A stretch of 64,000 nt of DNA from the NCBI RefSeq assembly GCF_900182835.1, contig NZ_FXUB01000003.1:62001-126000 (forward strand), in the 5' to 3' direction. The position numbers and the translations under genes are program-made. This stretch comes from Desulfurobacterium pacificum. GTDB taxonomy: Bacteria; Aquificota; Aquificia; Desulfurobacteriales; Desulfurobacteriaceae. Of this stretch, positions 975 to 62,374 are shown in pieces (the first letter of the stretch is position 1; every line of letters starts with the position of its first letter). Under the pieces are notes generated by a model. It did no database searches. It worked only from the letters and a program-made list of their open reading frames with translations, and was not told the DNA's origin.

Positions 975-2924
975 ATGAGAGCGCTGCTGTTAGTATTGGT
1001 GTTTTTTTCGTTTTTTTTACCGCTGCAAGGATTTGCCAAACTTGAAAAAGGTTCTTCCTTGAATCTTGAAAGAGAAAAGATTCTGTTTCAAAGGGGATTG
1101 AGGCAGTTTAAAATAGGCTCTTATTCAACTGCTCTTGAGTATTTTCTCAAAGCTTTAAAGCCTAACTCTCCGTATTACAGGAAAGCTCTTTTAATGCTTG
1201 CCAAAACCTACTACGCTATAGGTAGGAAAACGGGGGAGAAAAAATATCTGTGGCAGGCACTTAATTATATTCAGCTTTACTTCATTACTTTTAAAGAAGA
1301 TGAGCAGCTTCCTTGGGACTACTATTACACTAAAGCGAAGATTTATGAATCTTTGGGTTTCTATGAGCAGGCTTTAGCCCTTTATAGGGTTGCTTTTTTG
1401 GCTGCGAAGACCGAGGATGAAAAGATAAAAACAACGGTGGGGATTATAAGAACAGCGGTGTGGATAAGAAGACCCGATATGGCAGATGAGTATTACATAC
1501 TTATATCCACTTCTAATTTCATAACGCCGCAGGAAGATAAAGAATTGGAGTTTGTACGTGGTTTAATGCTGTTTAGCAAGGGAAGGTATAAAGAAGCTCT
1601 GCCGTTTTTCTTTAAAGTTTATAGGCAGTATGAAAATTATTTAATAGATAATCCGGAGTATTACTATTACGTAGCCGAAAACGTTTATAGAACCGGAAAT
1701 TTAAAGTTAGCAGAGCAGCTTTTTAGAAGGATAGTAAGTCTTACTAAAGACCCTTTGGTTGTGAGGAAGTCTATTTTAAGGTTGGGGGATATTGAACTTA
1801 GGAGGGGAAATAGGAAGTTAGCTTTTGTTTACTACTATTCGGTGATTAGAGATTATCCTGAAACGCAGGAAGCTCAGGTTGCTCGTCTGAAGATAATTCC
1901 TATGATGAAGTATCCAGAGATTAAGTACAGGACGGAGCTTACGAAAGATAAAGCATTTAAAGACCCTATAAAGTATGTGGCTCAAATTTTAGTAAATTAT
2001 AGAACTACTTACGTAGGAGTTTACGCTCTTGCAGATTTGGGATATCTGGTTTTCAAAATAGGTTCTCCAGAAAGCGTTTTTAAAAGACTTACATGGGAAG
2101 TTTCTCTTATTTTTCCTCAACAGGTAAAGTATGAGCAAGCGGAGTTTTTCCGCTCTTTGTGGTCGCCATATTTGTTGTCTCTTCCTGCTGAAAAGATGTG
2201 TGAACTTTATAGGTCTAATCCTGAGTTTTTCCAGAGTATTTTTAGCAGACAGGTTCTTTTGAAAGTAGCTTCAGACCTTAAGATGTGTAATATGAGGAGA
2301 CTACGAATAAAGCTTTTAGAGTTTATGATTAAAAAGTGGAATACCGATGAGGACATAATATTAATGGCTAAGGCTTTGTATGATAGCAGGGAGTTTGAGG
2401 ATGCTCTTCGTTTTCTGAGCAAGGTTAAAGATAAGCACAGGTGTGATTATTGGAAGTTGGTTTATGAGATTTCCATTTTTCTTCCTGAAAAGAGACGTAG
2501 TAATTTAAAGCCGTTGGAAACAGCTTGCAGAAGTGAGGATTTAACGGTTACTGCAATTAAAATCTACTATTTATCCGCAAATGGAAAACTTGAGAATGCT
2601 TTTAATCTTTTAAAAAGTAATGTAGAAACTATAGTAAAAGAGTATAATAAATCAGCGGTTGTTAAGGCAGCAGTTGATAAGTTTTTGGATGTGGCTCTGT
2701 TAAGAGGGAATTATGGTTTTTCTTACGCTCTCTCCAAGTGGTTGTTGGAAGGAGGGGAAAAGGATTGCTATACTTATAGTTACTTTACCATCTCTTCTGT
2801 GAGGTTGGGTAGGATTAAGGAAGCAAAAAGCGTTTTGCCTGATTTGAAATTATGTAAGGACGACTTTGCGAAGCTTGCAGAGATTGTTTATCAGGATGCT
2901 GTGATGCAGGAGGAGTTGAGATGA
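975..2924 (+). CDS. Secreted TPR-repeat protein at head of flagellar operon
   Basis: A 649-residue protein with a clear N-terminal signal sequence (residues 1-21, hydrophobic core LLLVLVFFSFFLPL, cleavage likely after GFA). Many helical repeats follow, for example YSTALEYFLKAL, YKEALPFFFKVY, LKLAEQLFRRIV and RKLAFVYYYSVI, typical of tetratricopeptide repeats used for protein-protein contacts. It should be periplasmic or anchored to the envelope. Its stop overlaps the flgB start (ATGA), so it is translationally coupled to the rod genes. A role in assembly or anchoring of the flagellar basal body is inferred from position; no named family is recognised. Confidence 0.75.
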   Translation: MRALLLVLVFFSFFLPLQGFAKLEKGSSLNLEREKILFQRGLRQFKIGSYSTALEYFLKALKPNSPYYRKALLMLAKTYYAIGRKTGEKKYLWQALNYIQLYFITFKEDEQLPWDYYYTKAKIYESLGFYEQALALYRVAFLAAKTEDEKIKTTVGIIRTAVWIRRPDMADEYYILISTSNFITPQEDKELEFVRGLMLFSKGRYKEALPFFFKVYRQYENYLIDNPEYYYYVAENVYRTGNLKLAEQLFRRIVSLTKDPLVVRKSILRLGDIELRRGNRKLAFVYYYSVIRDYPETQEAQVARLKIIPMMKYPEIKYRTELTKDKAFKDPIKYVAQILVNYRTTYVGVYALADLGYLVFKIGSPESVFKRLTWEVSLIFPQQVKYEQAEFFRSLWSPYLLSLPAEKMCELYRSNPEFFQSIFSRQVLLKVASDLKMCNMRRLRIKLLEFMIKKWNTDEDIILMAKALYDSREFEDALRFLSKVKDKHRCDYWKLVYEISIFLPEKRRSNLKPLETACRSEDLTVTAIKIYYLSANGKLENAFNLLKSNVETIVKEYNKSAVVKAAVDKFLDVALLRGNYGFSYALSKWLLEGGEKDCYTYSYFTISSVRLGRIKEAKSVLPDLKLCKDDFAKLAEIVYQDAVMQEELR

Positions 2925-3292
2925 AAGGGGTGTTTGGGGAGGTGGATTTTTTAGAAAAGTGGTCTTCTTTTTATTTTGATAGGTCTAAGGTTATACAGAG
3001 TAATATTGCTAATGTTGATACACCTTTTTATAAACCCAAAGATTTGGTCTTTGAGAGAGAACTTGAGCGTTCTATCCCTCTTAAAAAAACAGACCCGAAA
3101 CATATTGACCCTTCTGCTGAGGAAAAATTGAAAGAAGTTGAAGTTCAAGATGTTAGCGGTTATGATGGGAATAAAGTTAATTTAGATAAAGAACTGGGAA
3201 AGTTGGCTGAGACTGCAATAATGGTAAGGACTTTAAATGAAATTATTCGTAAAGAGATGGGAAAGCTTAAGCTGAGCATTCAAGGGAGGTAG
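2921..3292 (+). CDS. flgB: Flagellar basal-body rod protein FlgB
   Basis: A 123-residue proximal rod subunit. The N-terminal flagellar rod motif is visible around residues 22-40 (QSNIANVDTPFYKPKDLVF), matching the conserved N-x-AN-x-DTP-x-Y/F-K signature. A heptad-rich C-terminal helix (LNEIIRKEMGKLKLSIQ) would pack in the axial coiled coil. The length is normal for FlgB. A GGAGG site precedes the ATG, which overlaps the stop of the TPR gene. It is followed 2 bases later by flgC, the usual order. Confidence 0.96.
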   Translation: MKGVFGEVDFLEKWSSFYFDRSKVIQSNIANVDTPFYKPKDLVFERELERSIPLKKTDPKHIDPSAEEKLKEVEVQDVSGYDGNKVNLDKELGKLAETAIMVRTLNEIIRKEMGKLKLSIQGR

Positions 3293-46006: not shown

Positions 46007-46084
46007 AAAGTTTTTTGGATAAGTTAAAGTGTATTAACGATTTTAGGAGAGGTTATTCTAAATATGTAAGTGACGGAGGAATGG

Positions 46085-47395
46085 ATGAGTTTGCAATTAG
46101 AGAAAAAAAATAAAATTTGTATTGTTGGACTGGGGTATGTAGGACTACCATTAGCAGTTCTTCTAGATACCAAATTCAATATCATTGGATATGATATAAA
46201 CTCTGAAAGAGTTAAAGAATTGAAGAAAAGTTTTGATAGAACCGGAGAAATTGATTCTGAAAAGTTAAAAAATTGCTCAGTGGAATTTACTGATAATCCA
46301 GAAAAAATTTCGGAAGCTAAAGTAATCATTATAACGGTTCCAACACCGATAGATGAACATAAAATTCCTGATTTAAGACCTGTTAAAGCTGCTACAAGTA
46401 CAGTAGGAAAGTATATGCAAAAGGGCAGTATTGTTGTCTATGAGTCTACTGTTTATCCTGGAGTTACAGAGGAAGAATGTGTGCCTATTCTTGAGAAAGA
46501 GAGTGGTTTAAAGTGGAAAAAAGACTTTCATGTAGGATATTCTCCTGAAAGGGTTAACCCTGGTGATAAGGAGCACACAATAGATAAAATCGTAAAAGTT
46601 GTAGCAGGTGACACTCCTAAAATAACAGAGTTTCTGGCACAGCTCTACGGTTCGGTGATAACGGCCGGAGTTCATAAAGCCCCCGATATTAAGACTGCTG
46701 AGGCTGCAAAGGTTATAGAAAATACACAGAGGGATTTGAATATTGCTTTGATGAATGAACTATCAATAATCTTTAATAAAATGGGAATAGACACGAAAGC
46801 AGTTCTTGAAGCTGCTGGAACAAAGTGGAACTTCTTAAAGTTTGAGCCAGGACTTGTAGGAGGACATTGTATAGGTGTTGATCCATACTATTTAACATTT
46901 AAAGCACAAGCAATAGGATATCATCCTGAGGTTATCTTAGCGGGAAGAAGAATAAATGATTATATGGGTAAGTTTGTTGCTGAAAATACTGTTAAAAAGC
47001 TTATAAAAGCTGGGAAAGCTGTAAAGGGAAGTAAAGTCCTTATTCTTGGAATTACCTTTAAGGAGAATATTTCGGATATAAGGAATTCGAAAGTGATAGA
47101 TATTTATAATGAGTTACGGGAATATGGGGTAGAAGTTTATGTTTATGATCCTCATGCGTATCCTGAGGAAGTGAAGGAAGAATACGGTATAGGACTTGTA
47201 GAGGATGTGAATAAATATAAACCATATGATGCTGTAATTGTAGCAGTGAAGCATAAGCAGTTTATAGAGAGATTTGACTTAGAAGAATATAAAAGTTTGA
47301 TGGAAAATGGAGATCGTCCTGTACTAATAGATGTTAAAGGGGTGTATGATAGAGAGGAAGCTATAACAAAAGATTTTCTATACTGGAGGTTATAG
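46085..47395 (+). CDS. wbpA: UDP-N-acetylhexosamine 6-dehydrogenase (WbpA/WbpO/WecC type)
   Basis: A 436-residue NAD-dependent UDP-sugar dehydrogenase. NAD binding is at ICIVGLGYVGLPLAVLL, VPTPIDEHKIPDL follows, YESTVYPGVTEEECVPILE and GYSPERVNPGD lead to the active-site Cys in GLVGGHCIGVDPYYLTFKA. It oxidises C6 of UDP-GlcNAc (or GalNAc/ManNAc) to the uronic acid. Because wbpB, wbpD, wbpE and wbpI homologues follow, UDP-GlcNAc is the likely substrate. The ATG at 46085 is chosen over GTG 46070, which lies before the GGAGG site (46075-46079). Confidence 0.9.
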   Translation: MSLQLEKKNKICIVGLGYVGLPLAVLLDTKFNIIGYDINSERVKELKKSFDRTGEIDSEKLKNCSVEFTDNPEKISEAKVIIITVPTPIDEHKIPDLRPVKAATSTVGKYMQKGSIVVYESTVYPGVTEEECVPILEKESGLKWKKDFHVGYSPERVNPGDKEHTIDKIVKVVAGDTPKITEFLAQLYGSVITAGVHKAPDIKTAEAAKVIENTQRDLNIALMNELSIIFNKMGIDTKAVLEAAGTKWNFLKFEPGLVGGHCIGVDPYYLTFKAQAIGYHPEVILAGRRINDYMGKFVAENTVKKLIKAGKAVKGSKVLILGITFKENISDIRNSKVIDIYNELREYGVEVYVYDPHAYPEEVKEEYGIGLVEDVNKYKPYDAVIVAVKHKQFIERFDLEEYKSLMENGDRPVLIDVKGVYDREEAITKDFLYWRL

Positions 47396-48949
<1,554 letters not shown>

Positions 48950-48950
<1 letters not shown>

Positions 48951-49438
48951 TGCTTATGCTGGATATCTTGCCGATTGAGCTGATTAAACAGGTAGAAATA
49001 AATAAGTTTGTTTCTTCTCTTGATAAAGCTCCTGCTTTTGAGCTTCTTGAGTGGGAAAAATTTTCCGATATTATTGATTTTACGCCTGATCTATTGGTGA
49101 AGTTTATTAATGATGTCTTCCTTATACAGTTCATAGACAAAACTGTTCCTGAAGATGTAATTTTTATGCTGTCTGTCTTGTCTTTGAGCTTTAAAAAGAA
49201 GTATGAGAGGAAGTATAAGGGATACGTTATTATTCTCTTTTTTACTAAAGGAGAACTAAGACGAGAACAGATGAACTTAATAAGACTTGCGGAACATTCC
49301 TTTGATATGAAAGGAGAAATTGATATTAGAGATTTGGAAGAAATAGAAGATGGAGACATAGCAAACTATATGGAACATAAAGTATGGTACGAATACATGG
49401 CATACTTTAAACGAGCTAAAGAAAAGGGGTGGTTGTAA
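48950..49438 (+). CDS. Unrecognised 162-residue protein upstream of PIN-WbpE fusion
   Basis: I do not recognise this protein. It is acidic and helical, with LDILPIELIKQVEINKFVSS at the start, a middle EKFSDIIDFTPDLLVKFIND, a strand KGYVIILFFTKGELRREQMN, and an aromatic end EHKVWYEYMAYFKRAKEKGW. There is no signal peptide or membrane helix. It overlaps wbpD by 1 base and the PIN-aminotransferase gene by 1 base, so it is tightly coupled to both. A partner or antitoxin of the PIN domain is one idea; nothing in its own sequence proves it. Confidence 0.7.
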
Positions 49439-50979
49439 TGCAAAAATTGCTTCTTGATTTAAATGTTGTTCTTGATTATCTGGATGTATCAAGGCCACGA
49501 CATAAAGCGGTTAGTGACTTTATGAATAGAAATAAGGGAAAGGTTAAATTTCTTTTTGCTTCTTATCATTACGATACTTTGTTTTATCTTGTTAAGAGAT
49601 TGAAGTTGGAACAAGAAGTTATTGATAAATTTTTGAAAGATTTTGATGTTAACTTAGTTTCCACTTCAGGAAGAAATATTATTGATGCCAAAAGTTTTAA
49701 AGATATTGAAGACGGCATCTTGGTTTCAGTATGCAGGAGAATAGGAGATGATTGCTATATCATAACTTATGATGAGGAGATGATAAGAAACTTTGAAAGG
49801 GCAGTAAGACCTGAAGTTTTCAAAGTAGAAGAACCTAAGACGATTCCAATGCTTGACCTGAAGCTTGAATATCTTTCACTTTCAGAGGATTTAGAAGAAT
49901 CTTTACTAAGAGCAGCTACAAGAGCCAGGTATATCCTTGGAGATGAAGTAAGACAGTTAGAAGAAAAAATTGCTAATTACGTGGGAACAAAATACGCTGT
50001 TGGAGTTTCTTCCGGAACGGATGCACTTGTTCTTTCATTAAGGGCATTAGCAATTCAAAGGAAAAAGAAGGAATTTTTCGACAAAGAAGATTTGGTAATT
50101 ACCACACCATTTACTTTTACTGCAACAGGAGAAGCTATTTTAAGAGCTGGAGCGACTCCTCTTTTTGTTGACATAGACATTGACACCTACAATATTGACC
50201 CTAAGCAGATAGAAAAAGCTGTAAAGAAGTACGGAAAAAGAGTAAAGGGAATAATTCCGGTCCACCTCTACGGTCAGCCGTGCAATATGGATGAGATTAT
50301 GAGAATAGCTAAGGAAAATGATCTATTCGTAGTTGAAGATTGTGCGCAGAGCTTAGGAGCTAAGTGGAATGGGAAGCAGACGGGCTCTTTTGGTGATATG
50401 GGATGTTTCAGTTTCTTCCCAACGAAACCCCTGGGCGGTTTTGGTGATGGAGGGATGATAACTACTAATGATGAAAAACTTTATGAACTTCTCTTAATGC
50501 TTAGGAAGCATGGTGGAAGGGATAAATATAACGTTGAATATATTGGCTACAATGCACGTCTTGATACTATTCAGGCTGCCGTATTGCTTGAGAAATTTAA
50601 GCACCTTGATGACTTCAATGAACGCCGCAGGGAAATTGCAATGAATTATAATGAACAGTTGAAAGATATAGAGTGGATAAAAACTCCTTATGAGCATCCG
50701 AAGGCTTATCATGTTTATCATCAGTATACTGTAGGAGTTATGAATGGAAAAAGAGATGAATTCCAGAAGAAATTAAAAGAAAAAGGAATTCAAACGATGA
50801 TTTATTATCCTGTTCCTTTGTATAAAATGAAAGTTTTTGCTAAGAACGGTATGGAGGTAATTGGAGAGTTAGAAAATGTGCAAAAAGTAGAGAAAGAAGT
50901 TGTGAGTTTGCCAATAGAACCCTTGTTAGGGAAAGAAGAAATAAAATCTATTTTAAATAAGGTATTGAACGATTCATAG
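49438..50979 (+). CDS. wbpE: PIN-domain/WbpE aminotransferase fusion
   Basis: A 513-residue protein with two modules. Residues 1 to about 132 look like a PIN nuclease: KLLLDLNVVLDYLD with Asp7, SYHYDTLFYLV with Asp46 in place of the usual Glu, IEDGILVSVCRRIGDDC with Asp92, and IITYDEEMI with Asp112. Residues from 136 on form a DegT/DnrJ aminotransferase: IPMLDLKLEYLSLSEDLEES, VGVSSGTDALVLSLRAL, VVEDCAQSLGAKWNG, the PLP Lys in CFSFFPTKPLGGFGDGG near 330, and ARLDTIQAAVL. The second part matches WbpE, which adds the 3-amino group in UDP-diacetamido-uronate synthesis. No stop or frameshift separates the modules. The fusion is not one I know for WbpE. Confidence 0.88.
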   Translation: MQKLLLDLNVVLDYLDVSRPRHKAVSDFMNRNKGKVKFLFASYHYDTLFYLVKRLKLEQEVIDKFLKDFDVNLVSTSGRNIIDAKSFKDIEDGILVSVCRRIGDDCYIITYDEEMIRNFERAVRPEVFKVEEPKTIPMLDLKLEYLSLSEDLEESLLRAATRARYILGDEVRQLEEKIANYVGTKYAVGVSSGTDALVLSLRALAIQRKKKEFFDKEDLVITTPFTFTATGEAILRAGATPLFVDIDIDTYNIDPKQIEKAVKKYGKRVKGIIPVHLYGQPCNMDEIMRIAKENDLFVVEDCAQSLGAKWNGKQTGSFGDMGCFSFFPTKPLGGFGDGGMITTNDEKLYELLLMLRKHGGRDKYNVEYIGYNARLDTIQAAVLLEKFKHLDDFNERRREIAMNYNEQLKDIEWIKTPYEHPKAYHVYHQYTVGVMNGKRDEFQKKLKEKGIQTMIYYPVPLYKMKVFAKNGMEVIGELENVQKVEKEVVSLPIEPLLGKEEIKSILNKVLNDS

Positions 50980-52323: not shown

Positions 52324-53436
52324 ATGATAAATATAGAGATTTTTGAAAAGAAATTTGCTATTTATTTTGAAGGAATAGATACTAAAAAATTTATAGAGGA
52401 ATTGTCTATTTATGGAAATTTGAATAAAAAATTCAGTGCTTACGATTATGAAGTGTTTTTGTTAAGAGGTAATAACTATGATTTTAGTGAGAAAATTATA
52501 TCTGTTAATCCTTCTTCTTTTTTCTTTTTGAAAGATGGGAGTTTTGCTGTAGATTATGGTCACTCTATAATTCACTATCAACTGGTGAGAACACCCAAGA
52601 GAATTATTATTAAAGTGAAAAAACAAGGTTTTTTAAGAAAGTTTCTATCCATGGAATATAGAAGCAATTTAGAAAATTTAGGTCAAATTTTCCATGAACT
52701 TGTTGTAGTTCCGTTGATGTTTTTTGACAGAAAAAAGTTTCTCATTCATGCTTCTGCTGTCTATGACAATGATTCGCATCAAGTTATTATGTTTGGCGGA
52801 ACTGGAGGTGTAGGAAAAACTTCTTTGGAATTGTTACTATCTCAGAGTAAAAGATATTCCTTTTTTGCAGATGATATTTGTGTGGTAGATGAAGAGGGAT
52901 TTGCCTATCCCAATCTGTCATATCCTAAGATATATGGTTATAATGTTCTAAATAATAAGCTTTTAACAACTAGAGATTTACTGAAAAAAAACACTCTTTT
53001 GTCTAAAATACATTGGTTTTTACATTATTATCTAAGAGGCCCCAATAAGGTAAGAAGAAAACTTTGTCCTGATTGTTTGTTTAAAGGAGGAGTACGAAAA
53101 CAGAAAGCCAAAATAGGAAAGTACTACATTCTTTTTAGGACCGCTACAGTTAAAGATATATGCTTGGTTGAAGTTCCGGTAACGAAGGTAGTAGAACCGA
53201 CAATACAAATAATTAAGAACGAATACTACACATTCTTGAGAAATATTCGCTGGTTTGTTGTTAATTCTGAGTTAGCTAACAAAAAAATAGATCTACAGGG
53301 ATTTAATATAGCTTTTTCTAAAGAAATTTTGGAAAATGCGTTAAAGGAAGCAGAGATTTATATCTTGAAAATCCCACTAACTTTAAGTCATAACGAATTT
53401 CTTAATAAAGTTAGAAGAATTATAGGAGTAGAGTAA
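52324..53436 (+). CDS. HprK-like P-loop kinase in polysaccharide locus
   Basis: A 370-residue protein. The central block LIHASAVYDNDSHQVIMFGG continues into Walker A GGTGGVGKTSLELLL (about residue 157-170), then SFFADDICVVDEEGFAYPNL, the pattern of the HPr kinase/phosphorylase C-terminal fold with its acidic Asp pair. The N-terminal 130 residues are unfamiliar, with strands FAIYFEGIDTKKF. HprK-like kinases occur in capsule/O-antigen loci of other bacteria, with unknown substrates. It lies 2 bases after wzx and overlaps the next glycosyltransferase gene by 1 base. Confidence 0.7.
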   Translation: MINIEIFEKKFAIYFEGIDTKKFIEELSIYGNLNKKFSAYDYEVFLLRGNNYDFSEKIISVNPSSFFFLKDGSFAVDYGHSIIHYQLVRTPKRIIIKVKKQGFLRKFLSMEYRSNLENLGQIFHELVVVPLMFFDRKKFLIHASAVYDNDSHQVIMFGGTGGVGKTSLELLLSQSKRYSFFADDICVVDEEGFAYPNLSYPKIYGYNVLNNKLLTTRDLLKKNTLLSKIHWFLHYYLRGPNKVRRKLCPDCLFKGGVRKQKAKIGKYYILFRTATVKDICLVEVPVTKVVEPTIQIIKNEYYTFLRNIRWFVVNSELANKKIDLQGFNIAFSKEILENALKEAEIYILKIPLTLSHNEFLNKVRRIIGVE

Positions 53437-61225: not shown

Positions 61226-62374
61226 ATGGAAATTCCCTTTCACAGACCATATATAGGTAAAGATGAAGAAAAAGAAGTTATTGATAGTCTTAGAAAAGGC
61301 TGGCTCACTATGGGGAAAAAGACAGTTGAATTTGAAAGGAAATTTGGAAACTATATCGGGGCTAAAAACGCCATTGCTGTTAGTTCGTGCACAGCTGCCC
61401 TGCACTTAGCTTTAAGGTGCATAGGTCTAAAAGAGGGAGATGAGGTCTTAGTTCCGGCTGTTACTTTTGTTGCTACAGCCGAGGTGGTTGGTTACTTTGG
61501 GGCAAGACCGGTGCTTGTAGATGTGGAAAGAAATACACACCTCATTGACATAAATGATTTGGAGAAAAAGATAACAGAGAGAACTAAAGCGATAATACCG
61601 GTTCACTACTCTGGTCAACCTGCCGATATGGATGAGATTATAGAGATAGCAAAAAGCTATAACCTCTATGTTATAGAGGATGCAGCTCACGCCTTACCTT
61701 CATGGTATAAAGGAAGAAAGGTTGGAACTATTGGAGATTTAACAGCATTCAGCTTCTATGCTACAAAAACTTTAGCCACTGGCGAAGGCGGAATGGTGAC
61801 AACAGAAAATAATGAATGGGCGGAGAGAATAAGAGTCCTCAGACTCCACGGAATTAGCAAAGATGCGTGGAAAAGGTACACTAAAGAGGGAAGTTGGGAA
61901 TATGATGTTCTTGAGAATGGCTATAAGTATAATATGACAGATATAAACGCAGCCCTTGGATTAGCTCAGCTAAGAAAGGTAGAGTGGATGTGGAAGGAAA
62001 GGGAGAGAGTAGCGAGTATGTACAACGAAGCTTTCAGAGAATATGAAGAGTTAATTCCTTATAGAGTTAAGTCAGATAGAATAAGTTCTTGGCACCTCTA
62101 TCCTTTAAAGTTGAACCTTGAATCTCTTAAGATTAATAGGAATCAGTTTATTGAGGAATTAAAGAGGAGAGGAATCGGCACGAGTGTTCACTTTATACCT
62201 CTTTATAGATTCTCTTATTACAAAAACATAGGGCATGGAGCAGTTGATTTTCCTAAGAGTGAGTGGGTTTTTGAGAGAGTTGTTTCCTTGCCGATTTTTC
62301 CGGGGATGAGAAAAGAAGAAGTTGAATACATTATTGAAAATATTATTGACATTGTTGAAAAAAACAGAAGGTAA
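61226..62374 (+). CDS. UDP-4-keto-6-deoxy-hexosamine aminotransferase (DegT family)
   Basis: A 382-residue PLP enzyme. FHRPYIGKDEEKEVIDSLRK, AVSSCTAALHLALRCIGLKE, VPAVTFVATAEVVGYFGARP, VIEDAAHALPSWYKG and the PLP Lys in FSFYATKTLATGEGGMV are typical of 4-aminotransferases such as PglE, WbgX and ArnB. It likely aminates a 4-keto-6-deoxy sugar made by the CapD-like dehydratase at the window end. It is preceded by GGAGG. Confidence 0.9.
   Translation: MEIPFHRPYIGKDEEKEVIDSLRKGWLTMGKKTVEFERKFGNYIGAKNAIAVSSCTAALHLALRCIGLKEGDEVLVPAVTFVATAEVVGYFGARPVLVDVERNTHLIDINDLEKKITERTKAIIPVHYSGQPADMDEIIEIAKSYNLYVIEDAAHALPSWYKGRKVGTIGDLTAFSFYATKTLATGEGGMVTTENNEWAERIRVLRLHGISKDAWKRYTKEGSWEYDVLENGYKYNMTDINAALGLAQLRKVEWMWKERERVASMYNEAFREYEELIPYRVKSDRISSWHLYPLKLNLESLKINRNQFIEELKRRGIGTSVHFIPLYRFSYYKNIGHGAVDFPKSEWVFERVVSLPIFPGMRKEEVEYIIENIIDIVEKNRR

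Follow-up and report, generated by a model that had tools for sequence, protein, structure and literature searches.

A VapC-like PIN domain fused to a WbpE-type sugar aminotransferase, and its exchange together with a putative antitoxin gene, in Aquificota and other bacteria

Toxin–antitoxin (TA) modules of the VapBC type pair a free toxin of ~130–150 amino acids (aa), built on the PIN fold and carrying conserved acidic residues, with a small upstream gene that overlaps or abuts it and encodes an antitoxin whose C-terminal tail is matched to the toxin. Here we describe a locus in a 64,000-nucleotide stretch of the Desulfurobacterium pacificum genome (contig NZ_FXUB01000003.1, positions 62,001–126,000 of the forward strand; the whole stretch is herein referred to as the window) that has in common with VapBC (PIN_3-type VapC, as in L004, a free RHH antitoxin and PIN_3 pair of the classic kind with a 4-base overlap in the source genome, G000:C1:161291–161632) the PIN fold, the conserved acidic residues and the small upstream gene; in related fusions the antitoxin tail is matched to the toxin type as well. 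It differs in that the toxin-like part is the N-terminal domain of a ~500-aa (513 aa) sugar aminotransferase, in that the partners of such fusions mostly do not belong to the ribbon-helix-helix (RHH) type, and in that the partner in the window is a 162-aa protein outside recognized families. The enzyme part resembles WbpE, a DegT-family aminotransferase of the UDP-2,3-diamino-uronic acid pathways known from Pseudomonas aeruginosa (PDB 3nyu), in its full catalytic domain, its pyridoxal 5'-phosphate (PLP) lysine and the gene order wbpA-B-D-E, whereas P. aeruginosa WbpE lacks a PIN domain. We consider it probable that the locus is a VapBC-like type II TA module lying inside a wbpA-B-D-E glycan operon, its toxin fused to WbpE and exchanged as a cassette, and that it makes the operon hard to lose.

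Two further groups of described systems come close. Polymorphic toxins (contact-dependent inhibition, Rhs and others; PMC3482391) likewise carry a variable toxin on a constant carrier, next to cognate and orphan neutralizer genes; however, they have an export or trafficking part and place the toxin at the C-terminus, whereas the 513-aa protein has PIN and DegT domains only, with no export or trafficking part, and the toxin is N-terminal. The fusion locus is not a member of that group and resembles it in its exchange pattern alone; PIN domains are apparently not used in polymorphic toxin systems (PMC3482391). Multidomain TA toxins (SMC-HicA, PtuZ, fused HicAB and CapRel; PMC10865869, PMC11980606) also hold a TA toxin domain within a larger protein, but there the fused partners are antitoxin, SMC or nuclease-like domains, and the word "aminotransferase" is absent from both surveys (PMC11980606, PMC10865869). 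We found no description of a PIN-DegT fusion in the open-access literature searched, and an earlier mention is possible; the parts (VapC-like PIN, antitoxins and WbpE) are known, and their arrangement is apparently undescribed.

The fusion occupies positions 49438–50979 of the window on the forward strand as one continuous frame of 513 aa (stop codon included in the coordinates); an alternative in-frame GTG start at 49429 would yield a protein of 516 aa. The original prediction had described a single uninterrupted frame joining a PIN module to WbpE, to be overturned by a stop or frameshift between the two, and this description holds: relatives are 52–67% identical over the full length, which leaves no room for a hidden stop, frameshift or assembly join in the window, and the fusion is conserved in independent assemblies. 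That two genes were joined by a sequencing, frameshift or assembly artefact has next to no chance of being true, since the identical join recurs at 19 loci in many independent assemblies and nothing was found in its favor; the source genome itself (1.59 Mb, 11 contigs) is 99.9% complete. We also discarded an internal start that would release free WbpE, because no Shine-Dalgarno-like motif precedes the internal ATG and this ATG is not universal (TTG in L005, none in L101).

Searched separately against profiles, as the original prediction had proposed, the two halves fared differently. The aminotransferase domain (49843–50979, fusion residues 136–513) was recovered outright, with DegT_DnrJ_EryC1 (PF01041) matching residues 152–509 at 388 bits and the solved P. 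aeruginosa WbpE aligning from residue 136 (E 2e-72), and its PLP lysine, Lys330 (50425–50427), is invariant across an alignment of 32 proteins. The enzyme part reaches no NCBIfam equivalog cut-off, and its gene context suggests the WbpE substrate UDP-3-oxo-GlcNAcA. For the N-terminus, fusion residues 1–141 searched alone gave a PIN_3 match below the Pfam threshold (E 0.026), and the equivalent region of three relatives (L005, L007 and L168) passes the PIN_3 cut-off. An AF2 model of residues 1–138, built with three relatives, reached a predicted local distance difference test score (pLDDT) of 80.6 and a predicted template modeling score (pTM) of 0.77, and its best Foldseek matches in the PDB are VapC-type PIN domains (5x3t_B of a Mycobacterium tuberculosis VapBC, E 1e-4; VapC20, E 7e-4). 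From the relatives' PIN_3 matches, the model and the Foldseek matches, we assign the N-terminal ~133 residues (49438–49836) as a VapC-like PIN domain, as had been claimed, of the type that we call A. The other outcome named as fatal to the original prediction, a structure prediction lacking the PIN fold, therefore did not occur.

The active site of this domain has been kept. Residues D7 (49456–49458), D89, E91 and D92 (49702–49713), together with N9 and D13, are present in all 18 fusions that have a partner gene, and D112 (49771–49773) in 16 of them. Of the four aspartates that the original prediction had placed in PIN-like positions, Asp7 and Asp92 are conserved and Asp112 mostly so; Asp46 is not, and other types have A, H, P or G at its position. 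A second acid, usual in helix 3, cannot be clearly recognized, and the same holds for the free PIN_3 of L004. The PIN domains are under purifying selection, with ratios of nonsynonymous to synonymous substitution (dN/dS) of 0.05–0.30, similar to WbpE, among pairs with estimable dS (several pairs are saturated). Locus L186 (G881:C166, reverse complement 1772–3256), alone among the fusions in lacking a small partner gene, has a decayed PIN-like N-terminus from which the active-site residues have been lost; it may serve as a natural control, a single case, in the direction that a toxin–antitoxin reading predicts. Upstream of L186 lie two genes that look FdtA-like by eye.

Directly upstream of the fusion in the window, on the same strand, lies a 162-aa gene (48950–49438) whose stop codon (TAA) overlaps the ATG start of the fusion by one base (TAATG). 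The original prediction missed this gene, and likewise that toxin types are exchanged and that orphan antitoxins occur, both described below. A small open reading frame (ORF) overlaps or abuts the start of the fusion at 18 of the 19 loci, L186 being the exception. Its product measures 71–89 aa in types B–E and G, whereas type F has a partner of 132 aa and type A one of 162 aa; free-standing PIN_3 genes in Aquificota have the same layout, with short antitoxin genes that mostly look RHH. A 52% identical homologue of the 162-aa gene sits at the same position in the other type A locus, L005, and nowhere else in 136 Aquificota genomes. Since it is placed like the antitoxins of types B, C and D, and it occurs at both type A loci only, we read the 162-aa gene as the putative antitoxin of the type A PIN.

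In type II systems the C-terminal tail of the antitoxin binds the toxin and the N-terminal half is independent. We split the partner proteins into the N-terminal 33 aa and the remainder, leaving out those of types A (162 aa) and F (132 aa), and found that the C-terminal parts group by PIN type: values are mostly 4.8–25 within type B (lowest 2.6, L183 vs L101), 14.9 within C, and 12–17 within D (11–23 with relics included), and between types they are mostly below 3, with a maximum of 5.2. Among the N-terminal halves there are two unrelated families that cross PIN types, one provisionally AF2212-like (type B loci L008, L043, L009 and L183, type C locus L184, and type D) and another found with type B (L006, L035 and L101) and type C (L007). 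Tails that track the PIN type and N-terminal halves that do not are the pattern expected of type II antitoxins.

The PIN slot is occupied by at least seven PIN types (A–G), which we defined by PIN sequence and not by the WbpE tree. Identity between most types is 20–36% (the B-like PIN of L183 is 38–44% identical to B), against 57–87% for WbpE within the clade; between the window and L006, WbpE is 81% and the PIN 28% identical. The exchanged block can be delimited from these two loci: by blastn they are 85% identical up to position 48950, the stop of wbpD, and 82% identical from 49919, with no match detected between, and together with block identities this defines a cassette at 48951–49925 (forward strand) comprising the partner gene, the PIN and the first ~28 residues of WbpE. 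The breakpoint lies ~28 residues into WbpE, and this N-terminal stretch follows the PIN type in most pairs compared, and weakly or not at all in B vs D and in L183 vs L035. On the WbpE tree, types B and A are rejected as clades (approximately unbiased (AU) test, p 0.0003 and 0.0015) and type D is not (p 0.12), and the tree implies at least five changes of PIN type.

Some of these changes have left intermediates. Locus L005 holds a full orphan type D antitoxin (reverse complement 740–990) and a type D PIN that is cut off by a stop after ~12 codons, followed by the type A partner and PIN, and its DNA is 82% identical to the type D locus L034 up to the truncated PIN start; we interpret it, from the sequence, as the fossil of one replacement event. 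A remnant of a D-tailed antitoxin (reverse complement about 970–1202) likewise lies upstream of the type C pair in L007. No notable flanking repeats that would mark a mobile element were found at the cassette, and no type B PIN was found on plasmids. In the unfused relatives L045–L050, wbpD is followed directly by wbpE without a cassette, which makes the TA cassette an insertion between the two genes. That a toxin gene was captured by the operon, as the original prediction had suggested as one origin of the fusion, is therefore well supported: an antitoxin-like gene immediately precedes the fusion, and different toxin and antitoxin pairs have filled the slot on several occasions. Its other suggestion, that the fusion couples glycan synthesis to RNA cleavage, is a possibility.

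The fusion is shared well beyond the window. A search comprising 1989 genome look-ups (overlapping) and one scan found PIN-DegT fusions at at least 19 loci, most of them in Aquificota and the rest in a Nitrospirota-centered set and unassigned bins. In the 136 Aquificota genomes, every complete WbpE orthologue of the clade is PIN-fused (L001, which is the window, L005–L009, L034–L036 and L038); L037 is incomplete and ends at a contig edge, and L042, from a Hydrogenothermus contig, has the same match coordinates and PIN sequence as L034. Further fusions are L043, L101, L165 and L168, as well as L183–L186 from genomes around the Nitrospirota center, and none were added among 288 relatives of G136 and 357 of G881. 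The best 80 WbpE loci in genome_contigs include just three with a PIN (L042, L043 and L101), and 77 lack one. As a control, a PF13470 search of the 136 Aquificota genomes gave about 120 PIN_3 matches, nearly all free-standing, and every frame longer than 200 aa among them is a WbpE fusion. The type B PIN of L101 (64–70% identical to other B) sits on a WbpE whose identity to the clade is just ~41%, and in L165 and L168 the PIN is fused to other DegT enzymes. Our reading of the enzyme tree suggests about four separate gains of the fusion (the WbpE clade, L101, L165/L168 and L186), perhaps with L185 as another. Two taxonomic labels are doubtful at face value: Gracilibacteria for L101 (its genes end in TGA and its contig has 26% GC) and archaeon for L043 (its PIN start and antitoxin sequence recur in the Aquificota genome G097, at L131). 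One genome (G126) holds two PIN-WbpE loci, L036 and L040, with PIN types B and D, of which L040 is broken by a contig end.

We propose that the PIN toxin is made as the N-terminal part of the WbpE polypeptide, and the antitoxin from the adjoining upstream gene. The C-terminal tail of the antitoxin would bind the PIN and silence its RNase activity, and the WbpE half would meanwhile produce a 3-amino sugar destined for a surface glycan; loss or replacement of the operon or of the antitoxin would leave the RNase unneutralized, so that the operon becomes difficult to lose or overwrite. The antitoxin and PIN cassette would be swapped when wbpD and the body of WbpE recombine, and toxin types would turn over in the manner of alleles. 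Several points weigh against this proposal. The 162-aa partner has no antitoxin domain recognized by Pfam or NCBIfam, gave no usable AF2 model (pLDDT 40), and has no relatives in viral contigs, in Aquificota beyond the two type A loci, or in the PDB (best E 0.69), and the AF2212-like assignment of antitoxin N-terminal halves is below threshold. TA modules may also persist as selfish genes, and the addiction benefit is something that we infer here. A likeness of the 162-aa protein to Rpn/PD-(D/E)XK proteins, seen by eye only, found no support and was dropped.

Other explanations would give the fused PIN a different role. An inert passenger, in which the PIN is inactive and at most a structural or dimerizing extension of WbpE, with the upstream gene a relic, would account for the decayed, partnerless PIN of L186, and we nonetheless give it a low probability: active-site residues and the matching of tail to PIN are kept at all 18 loci with a partner, and both the purifying selection and the repeated refilling of the slot speak against it. 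For the intact loci, a relic without activity is unlikely. Alternatively, the PIN could trim specific RNAs, such as the operon mRNA, upon substrate binding or flux through WbpE. A single polypeptide encoded in a single operon would suit such regulatory coupling; however, the halves are exchanged independently, with PINs of 20–36% identity on the same enzyme and a type B PIN on the distant WbpE of L101, and since such exchange would make it difficult to maintain a fine allosteric coupling, we regard this as very unlikely.

The fusion might instead act as an anti-phage sensor and effector, in which the PIN RNase is set free, and the infection aborted, when a phage interferes with the glycan enzyme or with the antitoxin; the exchange of types would then stem from an arms race with antitoxins carried by phages. 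Toxin types are indeed exchanged rapidly, and surface glycans are common phage receptors. Multidomain TA toxins have moreover been proposed to act in defense (PMC11980606, PMC10865869). Nevertheless, the locus lies within a glycan operon, no defense gene was noticed among the neighbors looked at, and viral contigs hold no matching proteins, and we consider a defensive role unlikely. Beyond the addiction module that we favor for this locus, it is quite possible, as a more tentative proposal, that the fusions represent a new class of intracellular polymorphic TA locus, with a DegT enzyme as the constant carrier of interchangeable PINs and cognate antitoxins, by which a surface-glycan operon guards itself against loss or replacement, with several origins and spread between phyla.

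The operon context that the WbpE assignment implies is present upstream of the cassette on the forward strand: a nucleotide-sugar dehydrogenase (WbpA/WbpO-like, 46070–47395; PF03721, PF00984, PF03720), a Gfo/Idh/MocA oxidoreductase (WbpB-like, 47396–48358; PF01408, PF02894) and a hexapeptide acetyltransferase (WbpD-like, 48348–48950; PF00132), the last of which forms the left border of the exchanged cassette and adjoins it in those fused loci whose available sequence covers this region. The WbpB-like and WbpD-like enzymes form one fused protein of 524–610 aa in L047–L050 and L183–L185. Further along the glycan cluster of the window, a 370-aa ORF (52324–53436) has no good Pfam match and a weak PEPCK/HPr-kinase-like P-loop stretch, and a second DegT aminotransferase (61226–62374), unfused, is 35% identical to the fused WbpE. 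A DegT aminotransferase on a Thermacetogenium sp. UBA5472 contig (L119, a 647-aa frame) has a long in-frame N-terminal extension of another kind, which looks like a hexapeptide-repeat acyltransferase.

Should the fused PIN prove active and kept in check by its antitoxin, TA modules can be built into a biosynthetic enzyme, and a glycan operon can have its own addiction module. The long-standing question of which purpose chromosomal TA modules serve would then have a concrete answer that can be tested, and the exchange intermediates (orphan and chimeric antitoxins, a truncated PIN, and a decayed PIN without an antitoxin) offer a natural series for studying how toxin specificity is transferred.
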